Origin: Actinomycetota bacterium
GTDB lineage: Bacteria > Actinomycetota > Actinomycetes > S36-B12 > CAIYMF01
Length of the DNA stretch: 6,799 nucleotides
Direction of reading: 5' to 3'
Assembly: GCA_009699025.1 (NCBI GenBank)
Contig: WLOZ01000098.1
Coordinates: 1-6,799 of the forward strand
Of the stretch, positions 1 to 6,799 are shown piece by piece. The position numbers and the translations under genes are program-made. Under the pieces are notes generated by a model, which did no database searches, was not told the DNA's origin, and worked only from the letters and a program-made list of their open reading frames with translations. Each line of letters opens with the position of its first letter. Positions within the stretch are counted from its first letter, which is position 1.

Positions 1-1409
1 GCCAGACCATCGACCAGGTCGGCGTCTTCGGCGCAGCGCCCCGATTCGCCTTCGACCTGCCTGCCCCCGACGTCGTGTCCGAGCGCGCGCTACGCCTCGT
101 GCAGTCGGCGGTGTCGCGGGTGGCCGCGGCGGCGTGCGATGCCTTCGACCCGGGCCCCGCCCACCTCAACGTGTCGTTCCGCGATCCGCTGGTGCCCGAG
201 CCGGGGGTGACCGACGACCACGAGATGGTCATCGCGGTTCTCGAGTCGCCGGCGCTGCTCGTCGACGCGAGGCTGAGCGCCACCATGGTGCTGCCGCTCG
301 ACGAGTCTCTGGCGAGCATCGGACCGATCCCCGCACGCGGAGCGGTCATCATCGGCGACCCCATCGACGACGAGTCGCGCGAGGCCGCCGCCGAGCTGGC
401 CGACGCGTGCGGCTGGCCGCTCATCGCCGAGCCCAGCGGGCTCCCGTCCGACGACCACGACACTCTCATCGCCCACGCGTCGCTGCTGCTGGCCGACGCC
501 GACTTCCGAGCCAGCCATGCCCCCGAGCTCGTCGTCACGGTCGGGCGCGTGGGGCTCAGCCGCGGGGTCATGCGCCTCATCGCGAGCGCCGAGCGGCACG
601 TCATCGTCGACTCGCGGCCCGCGGCGCGCTGGGCCGACCCGCTGCGTCTGGGCGGAGTGGTGCTGGGCGCGGTTCCCGAGCCCCCCAACGAGCTCGACCA
701 CGACCCCGCCTGGCTGGCGTCGTGGCTCACGGCGTCGGCGTCGGCCGAGGACGCCGTCAGCGCGCATCTCGACGTCGAGGATGCCCTCAGCGGGCCTGCG
801 GTCGCACGTCTGCTGCTTGCCCAGGCCGACGCCGACGGCGTCGTGCTCATCGGGGCGTCGTGGCCGGTGCGGCACGCCGAAGCCTTCGCGCTGCCACGCG
901 ACCGCATGCCACGCGTCGTCGGCAATCGAGGAACGTCGGGAATCGACGGACTGATCTCGACCGCGTGGGGAGTGGCCCTCGCCCATCAGGCAGAGGCGGA
1001 GCCCGAGTCGCGGGCCACCGGGTACGCACTGCTGGGCGACCTCGCGTTCCTGTACGACCTCAACGCGCTCGTGGTGGGAGCCTCCGACGCACGACCCAAC
1101 CTCGTGATCGTCGTCATCGACAACGACGGTGGGGGCATCTTCTCCTCGCTCGAGCAGGGCGACCCCCGGTTCGGCGCCGACTTCGAGCGGGTGTTCGGCA
1201 CGCCGCACGGTCGCGACCTGCTCGCCCTGGCCCAGGCCCACGGCATCGAGGCGGTTCGGGTCGACTCAGCGCTGGGCCTCGTTGCAGCCCTCGACGAGGC
1301 GGTCGCCGCAGGGGGAGTGCGCGTGGTGGTGGCCGACACGGGCCCGCGTGCAGACGAGGCCGCGCTGCTGGCGCGGGTACAGGCCAGCGTCAGCGACTCG
1401 ATCGCCTAA
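1..1409 (+). CDS. menD: MenD, SEPHCHC synthase of menaquinone biosynthesis (5'-truncated)
   Basis: MenD (2-succinyl-5-enolpyruvyl-6-hydroxy-3-cyclohexene-1-carboxylate synthase) is a cytoplasmic thiamine-diphosphate enzyme that joins isochorismate and 2-oxoglutarate in menaquinone synthesis. The frame is open from base 3 with no start, so the gene begins upstream; a GTG at 75 is internal. About 468 residues are present, against roughly 556 in E. coli MenD, so about 100 N-terminal residues are missing, including the region with the cofactor-activating glutamate. Visible hallmarks are the NRGTSGIDGLISTAWG substrate/cofactor segment (about 926-976) and the ThDP/Mg motif, which starts GDLAFLYDLNAL at 1035 and ends IDNDGGGIFSSL near 1116-1151. 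E. coli MenD has NRGASGIDGL and GDLSALYDLNAL at the matching places. The stop TAA (1407-1409) overlaps the stop of the convergent permease gene, leaving no room for a terminator. The family call is firm. Confidence 0.95.
   Translation, partial: QTIDQVGVFGAAPRFAFDLPAPDVVSERALRLVQSAVSRVAAAACDAFDPGPAHLNVSFRDPLVPEPGVTDDHEMVIAVLESPALLVDARLSATMVLPLDESLASIGPIPARGAVIIGDPIDDESREAAAELADACGWPLIAEPSGLPSDDHDTLIAHASLLLADADFRASHAPELVVTVGRVGLSRGVMRLIASAERHVIVDSRPAARWADPLRLGGVVLGAVPEPPNELDHDPAWLASWLTASASAEDAVSAHLDVEDALSGPAVARLLLAQADADGVVLIGASWPVRHAEAFALPRDRMPRVVGNRGTSGIDGLISTAWGVALAHQAEAEPESRATGYALLGDLAFLYDLNALVVGASDARPNLVIVVIDNDGGGIFSSLEQGDPRFGADFERVFGTPHGRDLLALAQAHGIEAVRVDSALGLVAALDEAVAAGGVRVVVADTGPRADEAALLARVQASVSDSIA
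1406..1409. other. Tail-to-tail overlap of convergent stop codons (CTAA)
   Basis: TAA at 1407-1409 ends menD on the + strand, while the complement of CTA at 1406-1408 is the TAG that ends the last permease on the - strand. The two coding regions therefore share bases and there is no intergenic space for a terminator. Each transcript must run into the other gene before it can end. Confidence 0.93.
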
Positions 1410-3028
1410 ACGACGACATCTTCGTCGCACGCTACACAGATCGTGACGTGCGCTTCGGGATTCCAGAACACTTCCTCGCCCTCGGCGAGAGTGCGGTGAC
1501 ACACGCTGCACGTACCGGTGTGTGCGAGCTCGATGCGCTCGTGCAGGTCGCGGTCGACGTGACCGTGGTTGCGCACGTGGATGCTGCCGTCGCGGAACGC
1601 CCACACCATCAGGATCACGCCGGCGATGACAATGGCAGCGAGGATGATGAGGGGTCGCCAAGCCTGTAACCCTGCTCCGAACAGTTGCTGGCGCGGCCAC
1701 GCGAGGTTGATGGCCAGCGCCGCCAGCACCACCACGCCGACGACCGTCACTGGTCCGAGCCAGCGCCCCGTCGACCACGAGCCGGTTTGCCAGGTGCCCC
1801 GTCGAAGGGCAACAAGAAGCCCCACCAAAGACACAATAAAGGCGAGTAGGAATGCCAGCCCTGATGCCCCACCGAGCACGAAAGCCGTGAAGTCTGGAGC
1901 GATCAGAATCAGCACGAACGTGGCGATGCCAATCAGGGTGAGGGCGCGCATCGGCATCCGATTGCGGCTCGTGAGACCCACGAGCCAGTGGTAGCACGGC
2001 ACCTCGCGATCGCGAGCCATGGTCCACAGCGTGCGTGATGCTGCGAGCTGGCACACGGCGATGGCCACGAAGGTAGCGATGATCTGCAGGGCGGCAAAAG
2101 GTCGCGCTGAGCCCTCGCCGAGCGCCGACTGCATGACGGTGCCAATCGCGGCGGCATAGGGGTTCTGGGTCATCGACGTCGACACCGACGACGCGGCGGG
2201 AACGGCTAGCGCCAGCGCAATCATCGAGTACAGCACCAGGGCACCGCCCACAATGAGCGCCCACGCCATCGCCCGCCTCACGTTGACACGGGGTTCGCGG
2301 ATCTCCTCAGCGACGTCAGCCGGGAGTTCGAATCCGCGCATGGTGTTGGCGGTGGCCCACGCCAGTGCGATCAGGAAGGGACCGACCAGCCAGTTCCAGT
2401 CCAGACTCCCGCCGAGGGGGGCCTGGAAGAGATCGAAGAATCCGCGCTGCGCGTGGCCCAGCAACAGGGTCGAGTACACGGCGCAGGCGATCACAGAGAT
2501 CGCGACACACACAACCAACAGCACGCTCAGAACTCGGCGGCCCAGACCGTTGACGATTGTGGACACCGCGATGACCGCGAGCGCCGCACCTGCACCTTGG
2601 AGCCAGGTGGGAGCGGAGGCACCCACCAGGAAGAGCAACCGCTGGGCGTCAAAGTAGGCCAGCAGTCCCATGTAGAGCACGTAGGTGCAGAGATAGAGCC
2701 AACCGGTCATGAGACCTACGCGGGCACCCAGCAACTGCCTTGACCAGGCGGCTACGGAACCTTCAAGCGGCCAACGCGAGGCAAGGGCCCCGAACACCGC
2801 GGTCACAACGAGCATGACCACGAGGATCAACAGGGCAGCAAGCCAACCCGCGAGTCCGGCGGCCGCGATCATCAACGGCACGTTAGTGAACGAACCCAAC
2901 GGGCGTATCACCGAGAACGCCAGCGCGGATGCTCCCCCCATGGAGAAGCCGTGTCGCATCGAGCGTACGTCGGCGACGGGAACTCCATCGGGCTCGGTGC
3001 TGGTGCTGGTGCTGGTTGGATCAGGCAT
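1406..3028 (-). CDS. APC-family amino acid permease with C-terminal CX2C-X20-CX2C tail (type A, last gene of array)
   Basis: This 540-residue protein looks like an APC-superfamily secondary transporter of the amino acid/choline type. I see about 12 hydrophobic segments between residues 28 and 478. Family signatures are the helix 6/loop motif RGFELPADVAEEIREPR (231-247) and the helix 8/9 loop motif AASRTLWTMARDR (329-341). The classic GxG substrate motif of helix 1 is not evident, so the substrate is unknown. After helix 12 comes a cytoplasmic tail with His484, 488, 490, 496 and 503, and cysteines 507, 510, 531 and 534, resembling a zinc ribbon. The ATG start is preceded by TAGGAGG with four bases between, and the upstream gene stops 8 bases away, so it is probably translationally coupled. 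The N-terminus has a Thr-Ser repeat that makes it two residues longer than its paralogs. It is closest to the truncated copy at the right edge. Its TAG stop overlaps the menD stop. Confidence 0.92.
   Translation of the reverse strand: MPDPTSTSTSTEPDGVPVADVRSMRHGFSMGGASALAFSVIRPLGSFTNVPLMIAAAGLAGWLAALLILVVMLVVTAVFGALASRWPLEGSVAAWSRQLLGARVGLMTGWLYLCTYVLYMGLLAYFDAQRLLFLVGASAPTWLQGAGAALAVIAVSTIVNGLGRRVLSVLLVVCVAISVIACAVYSTLLLGHAQRGFFDLFQAPLGGSLDWNWLVGPFLIALAWATANTMRGFELPADVAEEIREPRVNVRRAMAWALIVGGALVLYSMIALALAVPAASSVSTSMTQNPYAAAIGTVMQSALGEGSARPFAALQIIATFVAIAVCQLAASRTLWTMARDREVPCYHWLVGLTSRNRMPMRALTLIGIATFVLILIAPDFTAFVLGGASGLAFLLAFIVSLVGLLVALRRGTWQTGSWSTGRWLGPVTVVGVVVLAALAINLAWPRQQLFGAGLQAWRPLIILAAIVIAGVILMVWAFRDGSIHVRNHGHVDRDLHERIELAHTGTCSVCHRTLAEGEEVFWNPEAHVTICVACDEDVVV
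2996..3016 (-). repeat. Hexanucleotide microrepeat encoding an N-terminal Thr-Ser run
   Basis: On the + strand GGTGCT occurs three times in a row, followed by GGT. On the coding strand this is ACC-AGC repeated, giving Thr-Ser-Thr-Ser-Thr-Ser-Thr at residues 5-11 of the last permease. Every Thr codon is ACC and every Ser codon AGC, as expected for replication slippage. The other full copies lack it and are two residues shorter at just this place. Confidence 0.85.
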
Positions 3029-3032
3029 GACG

Positions 3033-3039
3033 CCTCCTA
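3033..3039 (-). promoter_or_regulatory. Ribosome-binding site fused to the upstream stop codon (before gene at 3028)
   Basis: The - strand reads TAGGAGG, then CGTC, then ATG at 3028. The stop/Shine-Dalgarno fusion is kept, but the four spacer bases and the start codon differ from the other two junctions (CACC, GTG). This agrees with the gene being the more diverged copy. Confidence 0.88.
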
Positions 3040-4653
3040 GACCACTAAGTCGTCATCACACGTCACGCAGATGGTGACGTGTGCCTCAGTGTTCCAGAAC
3101 ACTTCTTCACCTTCGGCCAGGGCGCGGTGGCACACGCTGCAGGTGCCGGTGTGTGCGAGCAGGATGCGCTCGTGCAGATCACGGTCGACGTGACCGTGAT
3201 TGCGCACGTGCACGCCGCCGTCACGGAACGCCCACGCCATCAGGATCAGTCCGCCCACGATGATGGCGATCAGAATGATGACAGGTCGCCACGCGGCAAT
3301 GCCCGCAACGTAGATCTCTTCATGAGGCCACGCCACAGTGAGGGCTAGGGCGGCCAGTGCCACCGCTGACACGACGGCAGTTGCTCCCAGCCACCGGCCC
3401 GCACCCCAGTGTTCGGCCTGCCACTCACCGCGCCTGCGGGCGCGCACCAGGCCCACGATTGGCAGGAGCATGGCGAGTAGCAGGGGCACCGCCGATGCGC
3501 CCCCGAGTACGTAGGCGGTGCGCTCAGGCAGCACGAAGGGCAGGGCCGCCGCGGCAAGACCGACAACAATCAGAGCGTTCACCGGCATGCGCGGCCCGGA
3601 TGAGAGTCGCACCAGCCAGCCATGGGCTGGGAGCTCTCGGTCGCGCGCCATCGTCCACAGCGTGCGTGAGGCAGCGAGTTGAGCGATAGCGAGTGCGGCG
3701 AAGGTCACGACGATCATGAGAACAGCGAAGATTGTGGCGGCGGTCGTTCCGAGCGCGGTCTCGATCACCGTTCCCACCGAGGCGGCGTAGGGGTTCTGCG
3801 AAACCTCCCCCGACACCGTGCTGGCACCGGGTACCGCAAGGGCGACCGCGATGACGCCGTAGAGCGTGAGGAGTCCGCCGACAACGACAGTCCACACCAT
3901 GGCTCGACCAACGTTGATGCGCGGCTCGCGGACTTCCTCTGCTACGTCAGCGGGAAGCTCAAAACCTCGAAGGCAGTAGATCGTCGACCAGGCAACCGCG
4001 ATGATGAAGGGCCCGCTCCACCACGCCCAGTCGAGAGAACCTCCATCGGGTTTCTCGAACAGGTCGAGAATGCCGCGCTGGGCATGCGCGAAGAGCATCG
4101 TGCCCAAGACCAGACAGCCGAGAGCGGACGCGGCAACCGCCACCGCCACGATCATGATGAGTAGCCTGCGGCTGAGCGAGTTGCATACGGTCGCCACCGC
4201 TATCACAACGGCGGTGACAATTGCGGACTGCATGGGCCCTGGCGTAGTAACTGCGAAGACGTAAAAGATGCGCTGGGAGTCGAAGAAGCCGAGCGTTCCC
4301 ACATAGAGCACGTAGGAGCACAGGTAGAGCCAACCCGCCATCATTCCGGTGCGGGCGCCCAGCAACTGGCGGGTCCACGCGGCGACCGATCCTTCGAGCG
4401 GCCAGCGGGATGCGAGGGCGCCGAACACAAGACTCACCACGAGGACGACGGCCAGCAGGAGAACGACCGCAGTCCAGCCCGCGAGACCCGCCCATGTGAT
4501 CAAATAGCCCCCTACCGCGACACCCACCAGGGGGCGCATCGCGGCAAACGACAGCGTCGATGCTCCCCACAGGGAGAAGCCGTGCCGCAGGGAGCGAACG
4601 TCTGTGACGGGAATGCCGTCGGGCTCGGCGTCGGTGGCGATGGGGTCCGACAC
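3037..4653 (-). CDS. APC-family amino acid permease with C-terminal CX2C-X20-CX2C tail (type B, third gene)
   Basis: The product is a 538-residue APC-type permease, very similar to the upstream gene and moderately similar to the downstream one. I chose the GTG at 4653. It sits four bases after TAGGAGG, and the resulting N-terminus (VSDPIATDAEPDG) matches the paralogs. A start further upstream at 4758 would overlap the previous gene by about 97 bases and add 35 Arg/Gly-rich residues absent from the other copies. Signatures are RGFELPADVAEE (229-240) and ASRTLWTMARDR (328-339), within about 12 membrane segments. The tail keeps the four cysteines (505, 508, 529, 532) and the conserved histidines. 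Oddities are DDDLVV at the C-terminus where the others have DEDVVV, and a rare TTA leucine codon (3046-3048) three codons before the stop. The substrate is unknown; amino acids or amines are the family expectation. The neighbouring genes lie 8 bases away on both sides. Confidence 0.92.
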   Translation of the reverse strand: MSDPIATDAEPDGIPVTDVRSLRHGFSLWGASTLSFAAMRPLVGVAVGGYLITWAGLAGWTAVVLLLAVVLVVSLVFGALASRWPLEGSVAAWTRQLLGARTGMMAGWLYLCSYVLYVGTLGFFDSQRIFYVFAVTTPGPMQSAIVTAVVIAVATVCNSLSRRLLIMIVAVAVAASALGCLVLGTMLFAHAQRGILDLFEKPDGGSLDWAWWSGPFIIAVAWSTIYCLRGFELPADVAEEVREPRINVGRAMVWTVVVGGLLTLYGVIAVALAVPGASTVSGEVSQNPYAASVGTVIETALGTTAATIFAVLMIVVTFAALAIAQLAASRTLWTMARDRELPAHGWLVRLSSGPRMPVNALIVVGLAAAALPFVLPERTAYVLGGASAVPLLLAMLLPIVGLVRARRRGEWQAEHWGAGRWLGATAVVSAVALAALALTVAWPHEEIYVAGIAAWRPVIILIAIIVGGLILMAWAFRDGGVHVRNHGHVDRDLHERILLAHTGTCSVCHRALAEGEEVFWNTEAHVTICVTCDDDLVV

Positions 4654-4657
4654 GGTG

Positions 4658-4664
4658 CCTCCTA
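4658..4664 (-). promoter_or_regulatory. Ribosome-binding site fused to the upstream stop codon (before gene at 4653)
   Basis: The - strand reads TAGGAGG followed by CACC and then the GTG at 4653. This is identical to the junction before the 6278 gene, down to the four spacer bases. It fixes the start at 4653 rather than at longer in-frame alternatives. Confidence 0.88.
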
Positions 4665-6278
4665 GACGACAACATCCTCGTCGCACGTGACGCAGATCGT
4701 GACGTGCGCCTCGGGGTTCCAGAACACTTCCTCGCCCTGGGCGAGGGCGCGAAGGCACACGCTACAGGTGCCCGTGTGGGCGAGCAGGATGCGCTCGTGC
4801 AGGTCTCGGTCGACATGGTCGTGGTTGCGCACGTGAACGCCGTCGTCGCGGAACGCCCACGCCATCAGGGCGAGACCGCTGACGACGATGGCGACCAGAA
4901 TGATCAGGGGCCGCCACGCGGCAATGCCCGCAACGTAGATCTCCTCGCGGGGCCAGACCACATTGACGGCTAGTGCAGCCAGAGCGACCGCTGAGACGAC
5001 CGCCGCTGCACCCAGCCACCGGTTCGCTCCCCAGTGCTCGGCGTGCCACTCGCCGCGCCGGCGAGCGCGCACCAGCCCCACCACCGGGAGGAGCAACGCG
5101 AGCATCAGTGGCACCGCCGACGCTCCCCCGAGCACGTAGGCGGTGCGCTCAGGAAGCACGAACGGCAGGGCCGCCGCGGCGAGACCGACCACGATGAGAG
5201 CGTTGCCCGGCATGCGCGGCCCGGCAGAGACGCGGACCAGCCGGCCGTGAACAGGCAGTTCTCGGTCGCGCGCCATCGTCCACACGGTGCGTGAGGCGGC
5301 GAGCTGAGCGATAGCGAGTGCGCCGAAAGTGACGGCGATCATGAGAAGCGCGAAGGCCTTCGCGGCAGGATCGCCCAGCGAGGTCTCGATGACCGTTCCC
5401 ACCGACGCCGCATAGGGGTTCTGCGCGATCTTGCCCGACACCGTGCTGGCGGCGGGGATCGCGAGAGCGATCGCGATGACGACGTAGAGGGTGAGAAGTC
5501 CGCCGACGACAACGGTCCACACCGTCGCCCGGCCAACGTTGATGCGCGGTTCGCGGACCTCCTCGGCGACGTCAGCGGGAACTTCAAATCCCCGCAGGCA
5601 GAACGCCGTGGACCAGGCGACTGCGACGAGGAATGGTCCGCTCCACCACGCCCAGTCCAGACTCTCTCCGGAGGGTGTCTGGAACGCGTCCAGGATGCTG
5701 CGCTGGGCCTGGGCGATGAGCATCGTGCCGAAGACCAGGCAGCCCACCACAGACACAGCGACAGTCACAGACACGATCAGCACGAGAAGGCGGCGGCCCA
5801 GAACGTTGAGAGCCGTGGCCACGACCAGCAAGACGGCGGACAGGGTCGCGGACTGCATCGGTCCCGGCGCGGCGACACCGAACAGGTAGAAGAGGCGCTG
5901 GGCGTCGAAGAACGCGAGCGTCGCCATAAACAGCACGTACGAGCACAGGTAGAGCCAGCCCGCCATCATGCCGGTGCGGGCGCCCAGCAACTGGCGGGTC
6001 CACGCGGCCACCGAGCCTTCGAGCGGCCAGCGGGACGCCAGGGCACCGAAGACGAGACTCACCACGAGGACGATGGCCAGCAGGAGGACGAGCGACGTCC
6101 ACCCGGCGAGCCCGGCCCACGTGATCAGGTAGCCCCCGACCGAAGCGCCCACCAGGGGGCGCATCGCCGCAAACGACAGCCCTGATGCCCCCCACCTGGA
6201 GAAGCCGTGCCGCATCGAGCGCACATCGGTAACGGGGGTTCCGTCGGGCTCAGCGTTGGCGCTGATGGGGTCGGACAC
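4662..6278 (-). CDS. APC-family amino acid permease with C-terminal CX2C-X20-CX2C tail (type B, second gene)
   Basis: This 538-residue APC-type permease is exactly the length of its downstream neighbour and collinear with it, so the pair looks like the most recent duplication in the array. The GTG start at 6278 follows TAGGAGG by four bases. Residues 229-240 read RGFEVPADVAEE and 328-339 ASRTVWTMARDR, the two conserved cytoplasmic-loop motifs of the superfamily. About 12 hydrophobic helices are visible, including a helix 2/3 segment ALASRWPLEGSVAAW shared by all the full copies. In the tail, cysteines 505, 508, 529 and 532 are kept. The residue after the first CX2C is Leu where the other three have His, so that His is not an essential ligand. 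The juxtamembrane stretch is HVRNHDHVDRDLHER, with one Gly-to-Asp change. The substrate cannot be read from sequence. The 8-base junctions on both sides suggest one transcript. Confidence 0.93.
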   Translation of the reverse strand: MSDPISANAEPDGTPVTDVRSMRHGFSRWGASGLSFAAMRPLVGASVGGYLITWAGLAGWTSLVLLLAIVLVVSLVFGALASRWPLEGSVAAWTRQLLGARTGMMAGWLYLCSYVLFMATLAFFDAQRLFYLFGVAAPGPMQSATLSAVLLVVATALNVLGRRLLVLIVSVTVAVSVVGCLVFGTMLIAQAQRSILDAFQTPSGESLDWAWWSGPFLVAVAWSTAFCLRGFEVPADVAEEVREPRINVGRATVWTVVVGGLLTLYVVIAIALAIPAASTVSGKIAQNPYAASVGTVIETSLGDPAAKAFALLMIAVTFGALAIAQLAASRTVWTMARDRELPVHGRLVRVSAGPRMPGNALIVVGLAAAALPFVLPERTAYVLGGASAVPLMLALLLPVVGLVRARRRGEWHAEHWGANRWLGAAAVVSAVALAALAVNVVWPREEIYVAGIAAWRPLIILVAIVVSGLALMAWAFRDDGVHVRNHDHVDRDLHERILLAHTGTCSVCLRALAQGEEVFWNPEAHVTICVTCDEDVVV

Positions 6279-6282
6279 GGTG

Positions 6283-6289
6283 CCTCCTA
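6283..6289 (-). promoter_or_regulatory. Ribosome-binding site fused to the upstream stop codon (before gene at 6278)
   Basis: Read on the - strand this is TAGGAGG. Its first three bases are the stop of the truncated upstream permease, and AGGAGG is a near-perfect Shine-Dalgarno placed four bases before the GTG at 6278. The site decides the start of the downstream gene and points to translational coupling by ribosomes that terminate on the same site. Confidence 0.88.
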
Positions 6290-6799
6290 GACGACGACAT
6301 CTTCGTCACACGCCACGCAGATGGTGACGTGGGCCTCGGGGTTCCAGAACACTTCTTCGCCCGGGCTCAGGGTGCGGTGACACACGCTGCACGTGCCGGT
6401 GTGCGCGAGTTCGATGCGCTCGTGCAGGTCGCGGTCGACGTGGCCGTGGTTGCGCACGTGAATGCCACCGTCACGGAAGGCCCATCGATTGAGGAGCAGT
6501 CCCGTGACGATCACGACGATGACGACGATCAGGGGCCGCCACGACTTGAGCCCAGCGCCGAAGAGGGCCTCGCGCGGCCAGCCCACGTTGATCGCGAGCG
6601 CGGCGAGTGTGACGAGGGCGAATACGCTGGCAGGAACCAGCCAGCGGCCCATCGACCAGGGGCCAGACTGCCAGGTGCCCCGCCTGAGCGCCGCGAGCAG
6701 GCCGATGATTGCGACGAGGAACGCCAGCAGCAGCAGGACCGACGAGGCGCCGCCGAGCACGTACGCAGTGAGGTCGGGAGCGGCCAGTATCAGCACGAA
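6287..6799 (-). CDS. APC-family permease with C-terminal CX2C-X20-CX2C tail (type A, first visible gene, N-terminal part off window)
   Basis: Only the last 170 codons lie in the window, and the frame runs off the right edge with no convincing start. A GTG at 6794-6796 is internal, because the residue before it (Phe, 6797-6799) also matches the paralogs. The fragment aligns without gaps to residues 371-540 of the last gene of the array, from within helix 9 to the stop, and covers helices 10-12 plus the tail. It shares type A markers with that gene (LRRGTWQ, GRWL, LFGAGL, ERIELAHTG). Its tail differs from that gene's at only 2 of 57 residues by my hand count, against about 41 of 113 in the preceding membrane part. 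All four cysteines and six conserved histidines are present. If full length it should be near 538 residues. Whether further copies lie upstream cannot be seen. Confidence 0.88.
   Translation of the reverse strand, partial: FVLILAAPDLTAYVLGGASSVLLLLAFLVAIIGLLAALRRGTWQSGPWSMGRWLVPASVFALVTLAALAINVGWPREALFGAGLKSWRPLIVVIVVIVTGLLLNRWAFRDGGIHVRNHGHVDRDLHERIELAHTGTCSVCHRTLSPGEEVFWNPEAHVTICVACDEDVVV

Follow-up and report, generated by a model that had tools for sequence, protein, structure and literature searches.

Carriers of the APC superfamily form their substrate site at the breaks of transmembrane helices (TM) 1 and 6. Two described systems in which cytoplasmic parts are attached to such a core come closest to the proteins considered here: in GadC, the C-plug, a C-terminal cytoplasmic domain, gates the path of the carrier by the description given (PMC3663535), and in the eukaryotic Ssy1 of yeast an APC-type core is joined to cytoplasmic output parts, with an N-terminal cytoplasmic domain and a C-terminal latch, the abstract mentioning no finger (PMC12958826). 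The stretch of DNA analysed here (6,799 nucleotides of contig WLOZ01000098.1, assembly GCA_009699025.1, from an Actinomycetota bacterium; the window in the following) encodes four tandem APC permeases, copies 1 to 4 (w1 to w4), which resemble GadC, by description alone, in their C-terminal tail and Ssy1 in the joining of an APC-type core to a cytoplasmic part. Each of them ends in a putative Cys4 metal finger, which we take to be homologous to the finger of a minority of NERD proteins, and the tails that carry it appear to be kept alike by gene conversion between diverging cores.

The tail comprises about 57 residues after the last helix and contains, in all four copies, a CX2C-X20-CX2C pattern (cysteines 507, 510, 531 and 534 in the numbering of copy 1, with 20 residues between the pairs), six histidines, the sequence GEEVFWN, and six residues behind the last cysteine; this is the anatomy that an earlier, sequence-only reading of the window had described, and the reading frames bear it out. 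The same reading had called the histidines invariant, which is true of the window copies and does not extend to the family. Over 41 tail-bearing rows (27 database proteins, three window copies and 11 loci; P0005, which is partial, P0008, which is window copy 3, and P0026 were left out, and the rows are not all independent, some being the same gene from two sources), C507, C510 and C531 are present in every row, C534 in 40 (the exception, L003, stops at a contig end) and W522 likewise in 40 (one row having Val for Trp), whereas H484 is found in 35, H488 in 29, H490 in 36, H496 in 26, H503 in 38, and H527 in 36; in P0025, P0027 and locus L008, most of the tail histidines are lost and the finger is retained. 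Because the cysteines and the tryptophan are fixed and the histidines vary, the finger appears to be the module and the stretch before it a mostly variable linker. A second metal site of conserved histidines was excluded, none of the six being fixed across the family. The ribbon motif is carried by 29 of the 32 database matches to copy 1, a conservation far above chance; it is absent from P0026, which has a different C-terminal sequence, and from two distant matches, P0031 and P0032. The net charge of the tail is -7 over residues 478-540, histidines uncounted. Four deep-branching, tailed relatives, P0029 (L010), P0030 (L013), L012 and L030, extend some 40 or more residues beyond the finger; these extensions, which the window copies do not have, are partly alike (NPxATDA...STLxRxR) and possibly form a second small element.

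Two AlphaFold models give the finger a knuckle, a hairpin, and a short C-terminal helix (residues 532-538) at the second cysteine pair, and are thus treble-clef-like; C1, RING and PARP-type treble clefs, which show the succession of knuckle, hairpin and helix seen in the models, lead the structure-search lists. The sequence-only reading had argued against a treble clef from the few residues left behind the last cysteine, an argument that the modelled helix contradicts; its proposal of a Cys4 metal site stands as the best reading of the tail, which is predicted to hold one Zn2+. Placement in a known, characterised APC C-terminal domain, an outcome also considered in that reading, was not obtained, as the tail scores below the cut-off of every Pfam and NCBIfam model. 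The candidate zf-FLZ (PF04570) was rejected at 16.4 bits (cut-off 23.4), as was a zinc finger or rubredoxin known from the PDB, for which the best E by sequence was not below 0.043. No carrier with a comparable tail turned up in the structure searches, which excludes nothing, because matches to the core took up the lists and the tail was aligned separately from it.

Beyond the permeases, the pattern RxRLxxxGxCxxCxxxLxxGxxAxWxxxxxxVxCxxC is shared by the permease finger and a finger of actinobacterial NERD (PF08378) proteins, which also occurs on Mrr_cat and AAA_11 proteins. There, in hosts with nuclease-like or AAA domains, it is located at or near the N-terminus, sometimes in tandem, whereas in the window permeases it lies at the C-terminus of a membrane carrier and, unlike the NERD-type finger, shows an added linker and an AH in the hairpin turn. 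A hidden Markov model (HMM) built only from NERD fingers (12 rows) recovers the tails of the four window copies (1.7e-8 to 8.2e-6) from 4824 open reading frames (ORFs), one built only from APC fingers matches NERD fingers from 6e-11, and hhalign of the APC finger against the NERD finger gives 98.9%; the NERD rows (L082-L093) had first been picked by a mixed profile, A4, which contained APC rows. In a further set of 50 NERD loci, fetched via PF08378 alone, the APC-only HMM matches three (1e-11, 2.5e-7 and 4.7e-3), the first two of which (L124, L133) repeat genes already present as L084 and L085; the best score among 4000 shuffled ORFs is 0.1. Because of these matches, set against the shuffled background, we take the two fingers to be the same, homologous finger, which a minority of NERD proteins carries. 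Some results weigh against this conclusion: with the APC-only HMM, the cytochrome-like ORF L097 reaches 4.9e-5 and outranks the weakest NERD/Mrr-type finger ORFs, and the tail of L008 is missing from the matches of the NERD-only HMM at E <= 1, that of L012 having only 0.0077. The window proteins themselves have no NERD match in Pfam; the host of the finger here is an APC permease.

Three profile surveys bear on the spread of the finger. Profile A2, built from APC tails and run over 166 genomes of the order of genome G001, matches at 22 places in 13 genomes: 12 APC tails and ten weaker matches, among them two NERD proteins with an N-terminal finger, three other finger proteins (L044, L057, L058), one DksA/TraR-looking protein, and four chance-looking ones. 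The mixed profile A4 matches in at least 19 of 396 genomes of the phylum, one being G001 itself; at least 13 contain finger-bearing ORFs of 248-460 residues (E <= 3.8e-8) and at least five have weaker matches only, some of them cytochrome-like (at most 18 candidates were scored per genome, so that the counts are floors). Profile A5, made from both kinds and scored on at most 21 candidates per genome, matches in at least 28 of the 296 genomes covered in the class to which G453 belongs. When 26 clear non-APC finger hosts, hand-chosen among the finger-bearing ORFs, were scanned, 20 proved to be NERD proteins, one Mrr_cat, two AAA_11, and three without a family; no Pfam model reaches its cut-off on the finger of these hosts, DUF6255 overlapping that of L045 at 22.6 bits against 25. 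A word search for the tail on other hosts among 5.8 billion proteins returned 18 matches among 20 candidates, all of them APC, although seeding on exact 5-mers limits the search and leaves the absence of other hosts unproven; with the NERD finger, the same kind of search gave one NERD match among two candidates. Weak matches dismissed by eye as chance or another family are L047, L048, L049, L050, L051, L096, L097, L099 and L104; L095/L183, L098 and L184, also weak, are undecided. As separate observations, the NERD protein at L170 (1333-2694, plus strand) has two tandem fingers, and L091 and L092 show a second Cys4 unit by eye. At L057 and L058 (both 1480-1617, minus strand), the same finger occurs in an ORF reading MAR(M/L)IRLRFAGTCRGCG... 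without a Pfam match; these belong to genomes G001 and G004, both of which have tailed permeases.

The permease core is an ordinary APC/LeuT one. AA_permease_2 (PF13520) matches the three full copies at 105.8-112.8 bits (cut-off 27) and gives no match to the cut copy 4; the 12-helix LeuT-type fold of the APC superfamily is present, and structure comparison aligns the core with APC carriers of solved structure from about residue 18 to residue 489. Each gene is thereby read as encoding a 12-helix solute carrier of the APC fold, with transport as its predicted function. Compared with ApcT, GkApcT, BasC, AdiC and LAT1, to which they are 12-18% identical in the rows compared, the window permeases have R-P at the TM1 break, RGFE in TM6, and the added finger. 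A urea-carboxylase-system permease (TIGR03428) was rejected at 91.4 and 94.2 bits for copies 1 and 3 (cut-off 740.45), and an APC carrier with a UspA-like tail because the Pfam scan gave no Usp match at E <= 1. With loop limits set by hand from the structure model, the inner loops contain 19 lysines and arginines in 132 residues and the outer loops two in 113; because of this bias and of the match to solved APC carriers, the tail is very likely cytoplasmic, in agreement with the side proposed at the outset. The family member P0026 (452 residues) departs abruptly at its C-terminus before TM12, and is probably a frameshifted gene.

In a tree of 48 cores with the tails removed, a single branch (support 100/100, length 1.05) separates the 31 tailed rows from the remaining 17, which comprise P0031 and, of the 22 tail-less loci taken from the same order, 16; the tail therefore appears to have been gained once, in a deep permease clade. 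The root of this tree is by midpoint only, and the program warned that long branches meet at the split between tailed and tail-less rows. The same branch carries two arginine changes, both located at the usual substrate site (Table 1): the TM1 break changes from S-P in tail-less to R-P in tailed rows, and TM6 from mostly V/Y-GFE to R-GFE. R42 and R231 are two of ten core columns that separate tailed from tail-less rows, and their link to the tail is one event and not a repeated correlation, since both fall on one branch. As the two arginines occupy the usual substrate site, the substrate is perhaps anionic.

Against copy 1, 56-63% of aligned core residues are alike in the other copies, but 88-97% of the tail (last 58 residues). 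Conversely, copy 1 and P0001 agree at 444 of 449 core positions and 53 of 62 in the tail (Fisher p=4e-6), the tail of P0001 being nearest to copy 3, and copy 3 and P0010 agree at 459 of 476 and 55 of 62 (p=0.014), the tail of P0010 being nearest to copy 2. Among 30 protein pairs with more than 80% core identity, ten differ between tail and core at an uncorrected p<0.05; in nine of these the core is more alike than the tail, and in one the tail is more alike than the core; for the pairs of P0024 this difference may just reflect a fast tail. At the nucleotide level, L004, an orthologue of copy 1, is identical to it over 191 nt of core immediately before the tail, then identical to copy 2 over a stretch of 74 nt at the tail start, and copy-1-like again behind; a single assembly switch would not yield both flanks, a double switch possibly would. 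Fourfold sites are more alike in the tail than in the core for w1/w4 (9/27 against 35/52 different, p=0.005), w1/w3 (8/25 against 112/189, p=0.017) and w2/w4 (7/23 against 29/46, p=0.020); the orthologues w1/L001 differ in the reverse direction (p=0.007), and no significant difference is seen for w1/w2, w3/w4, w2/w3, w1/L004 and L004/L001. Because of the tract in L004 and the contrasts between tail and core in protein pairs and at fourfold sites, our reading is that gene conversion would keep one tail on diverging cores.

The permease genes are separated by gaps of eight bases, with the ribosome site TAGGAGG overlapping the upstream stop, and therefore look like one translationally coupled operon (Table 1). 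The start of copy 2 was taken at 4653, where the ORF lister puts it earlier, at 4758; copy 4, as far as the window contains it, is identical to P0004 (536 residues) at 105 of 108 core and 62 of 62 tail positions. Tail to tail with copy 1, and overlapping its end by four bases, lies a MenD-like gene, whose part in the window scores 155 bits against NCBIfam menD, below the cut-off of 244.2. Rfam and tRNA scans of the window gave no match.

Table 1. Coordinates of the permease genes, their tails and other features in the window.
Feature	Position	Strand	Remarks
APC permease copy 1 (w1)	1406..3028	-	540 aa, complete reading frame
APC permease copy 2 (w2)	3037..4653	-	538 aa; GTG start behind TAGGAGGCACCGTG, which overlaps the stop of copy 3
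APC permease copy 3 (w3)	4662..6278	-	538 aa, GTG start
APC permease copy 4 (w4)	6287..6799	-	C-terminal 170 aa only; gene cut by the window end
Tail of copy 1, variable linker and Cys4 finger	1409..1579	-	residues 484-540
Tail of copy 2	3040..3210	-	
Tail of copy 3	4665..4835	-	
Tail of copy 4	6290..6460	-	
Cys4 finger proper, copy 1	1415..1537	-	residues 498-538, RIxLxHxGxCxxCxxxLxxGxExxWxxxAHxxxCxxC; NERD-type homology
R42 codon, TM1 break	2903..2905	-	R in 41/41 tailed rows; S in 22/23 tail-less rows, the other a gap
R231 codon, beside TM6 break	2336..2338	-	R in 41/41 tailed rows, 0/23 tail-less rows
MenD-like gene, C-terminal part	3..1409	+	open frame; N-terminal part outside the window

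In the first set of loci, the tail is seen in 12 of 13, L011 being cut by a contig end. These loci are labelled as metagenome-assembled genomes (MAGs) called Acidimicrobiaceae, Actinobacteria, actinobacterium or Actinomycetota, with two from one 'uncultured bacterium' and one from a Burkholderiales bin (the tailed permease L009, 1111-2901, plus strand, whose place there may reflect contamination of the bin or a transfer between phyla); from the MAG labels and the label of P0005, the hosts are apparently freshwater actinobacteria. No relatives were found on viral contigs, and plasmids yielded one distant Rubrobacter permease (55% query coverage, 32.5% identity). PADLOC gave no match linking the permease to defence, and by ORF calling alone no shared gene neighbourhood is seen in ten stretches including the window; the neighbours common to L001 and L004 are explained by these being the same locus, assembled in two MAGs. 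There (L001 4026-7360, L004 3385-6680), the orthologue of w1 adjoins genes that we take, from their motifs (GMTCTSC in the latter), to be prephenate-dehydratase-like and P-type-ATPase-like, in place of the MenD-like gene of the window. In G001:C32 (69976-71573; L001, L024, L031), the w1 orthologue lies in two reading frames, split near residue 80, either by a real frameshift or by an assembly error.

As for the role of the finger, we hold it somewhat probable that it is a structural-zinc docking or regulatory tag common to carriers with different substrates. The finger would have been fused once to the ancestor of the permease clade and would form a zinc-held knob on a flexible linker below TM12; the knob would bind a common cytosolic partner or the inner loops of its own carrier, and this binding would tune or place several carriers whose cores take different substrates. 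The near-invariant Cys4 set and its cytoplasmic side are equally what a metal- or thiol-sensing gate would show, in which loss of zinc or oxidation of the cysteines displaces the finger, which in turn opens or closes the carrier on its inner side; GadC, itself an APC carrier, is described as blocked by its own C-terminal domain (PMC3663535). Such a gate is nevertheless unlikely, as the same type of Cys4 finger occurs on NERD, Mrr and AAA_11 proteins, where structural zinc is the plain reading, and as the additional histidines, by which a labile site might be tuned, vary across the family. That the finger is an inert stabilising cap, whose likeness between copies merely reflects gene conversion, would fit the three pairs of copies with tails more alike than cores at fourfold sites, but is rather unlikely in view of the cysteines and tryptophan retained over 41 rows with far-diverged cores, and of the three pairs without a significant fourfold difference (w1/w2, w3/w4, w2/w3), in which the motif is retained all the same.

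We consider it improbable that the permeases form an array of transporter-like receptors, in which each core would bind a different solute and the tail they share would relay the signal. A shared tail on diverged tandem cores would suit an array, and the arginines that replace Ser and Val/Tyr at the TM1 and TM6 breaks could have altered or ended transport; Ssy1 offers a parallel as a receptor evolved, by its abstract, from amino acid transporters (PMC12958826). Yet the fold is intact, and no signalling gene was noticed beside the inspected loci, judged by eye from ORFs only. Equally doubtful is a broader form of this idea, with tandem Arg-Arg cores acting either as a receptor array or as regulated organic-anion carriers, each with its own ligand and all addressing one cytosolic partner through a uniform finger tail; if an array it were, many nutrient signals would feed a single partner via a tail taken from nucleic-acid enzymes. 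The least probable reading is that the finger has kept its role from the NERD, Mrr or helicase proteins, binding nucleic acid or tethering the carrier close to DNA, since the acidity of the tail makes it poor for DNA.

The carrier is thus of a known kind and the finger a recurrent one, for which the searched libraries contain no dedicated model; what is new is the fusion of the two and the exchange of tails. Among the matches listed in open-licence PMC full texts, none reports an APC permease with a zinc finger or a NERD protein with the present one. The initial view of the tailed permease as no described family may be right about the fusion; about the finger it is not supported, given the homologues found on proteins of the NERD, Mrr and AAA_11 kinds. 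Here a membrane carrier bears a finger of nuclease-like and AAA_11 proteins, and paralogous carriers whose cores diverge while their tails are exchanged by gene conversion would constitute a natural experiment on the function of an APC cytoplasmic tail. R42 and R231, which in the compared rows occur in the tailed clade alone, yield a substrate prediction for a group known here from MAGs only. The finding suggests a shared regulatory or docking tag, which a transporter family gained a single time and which has since stayed similar among neighbouring copies.
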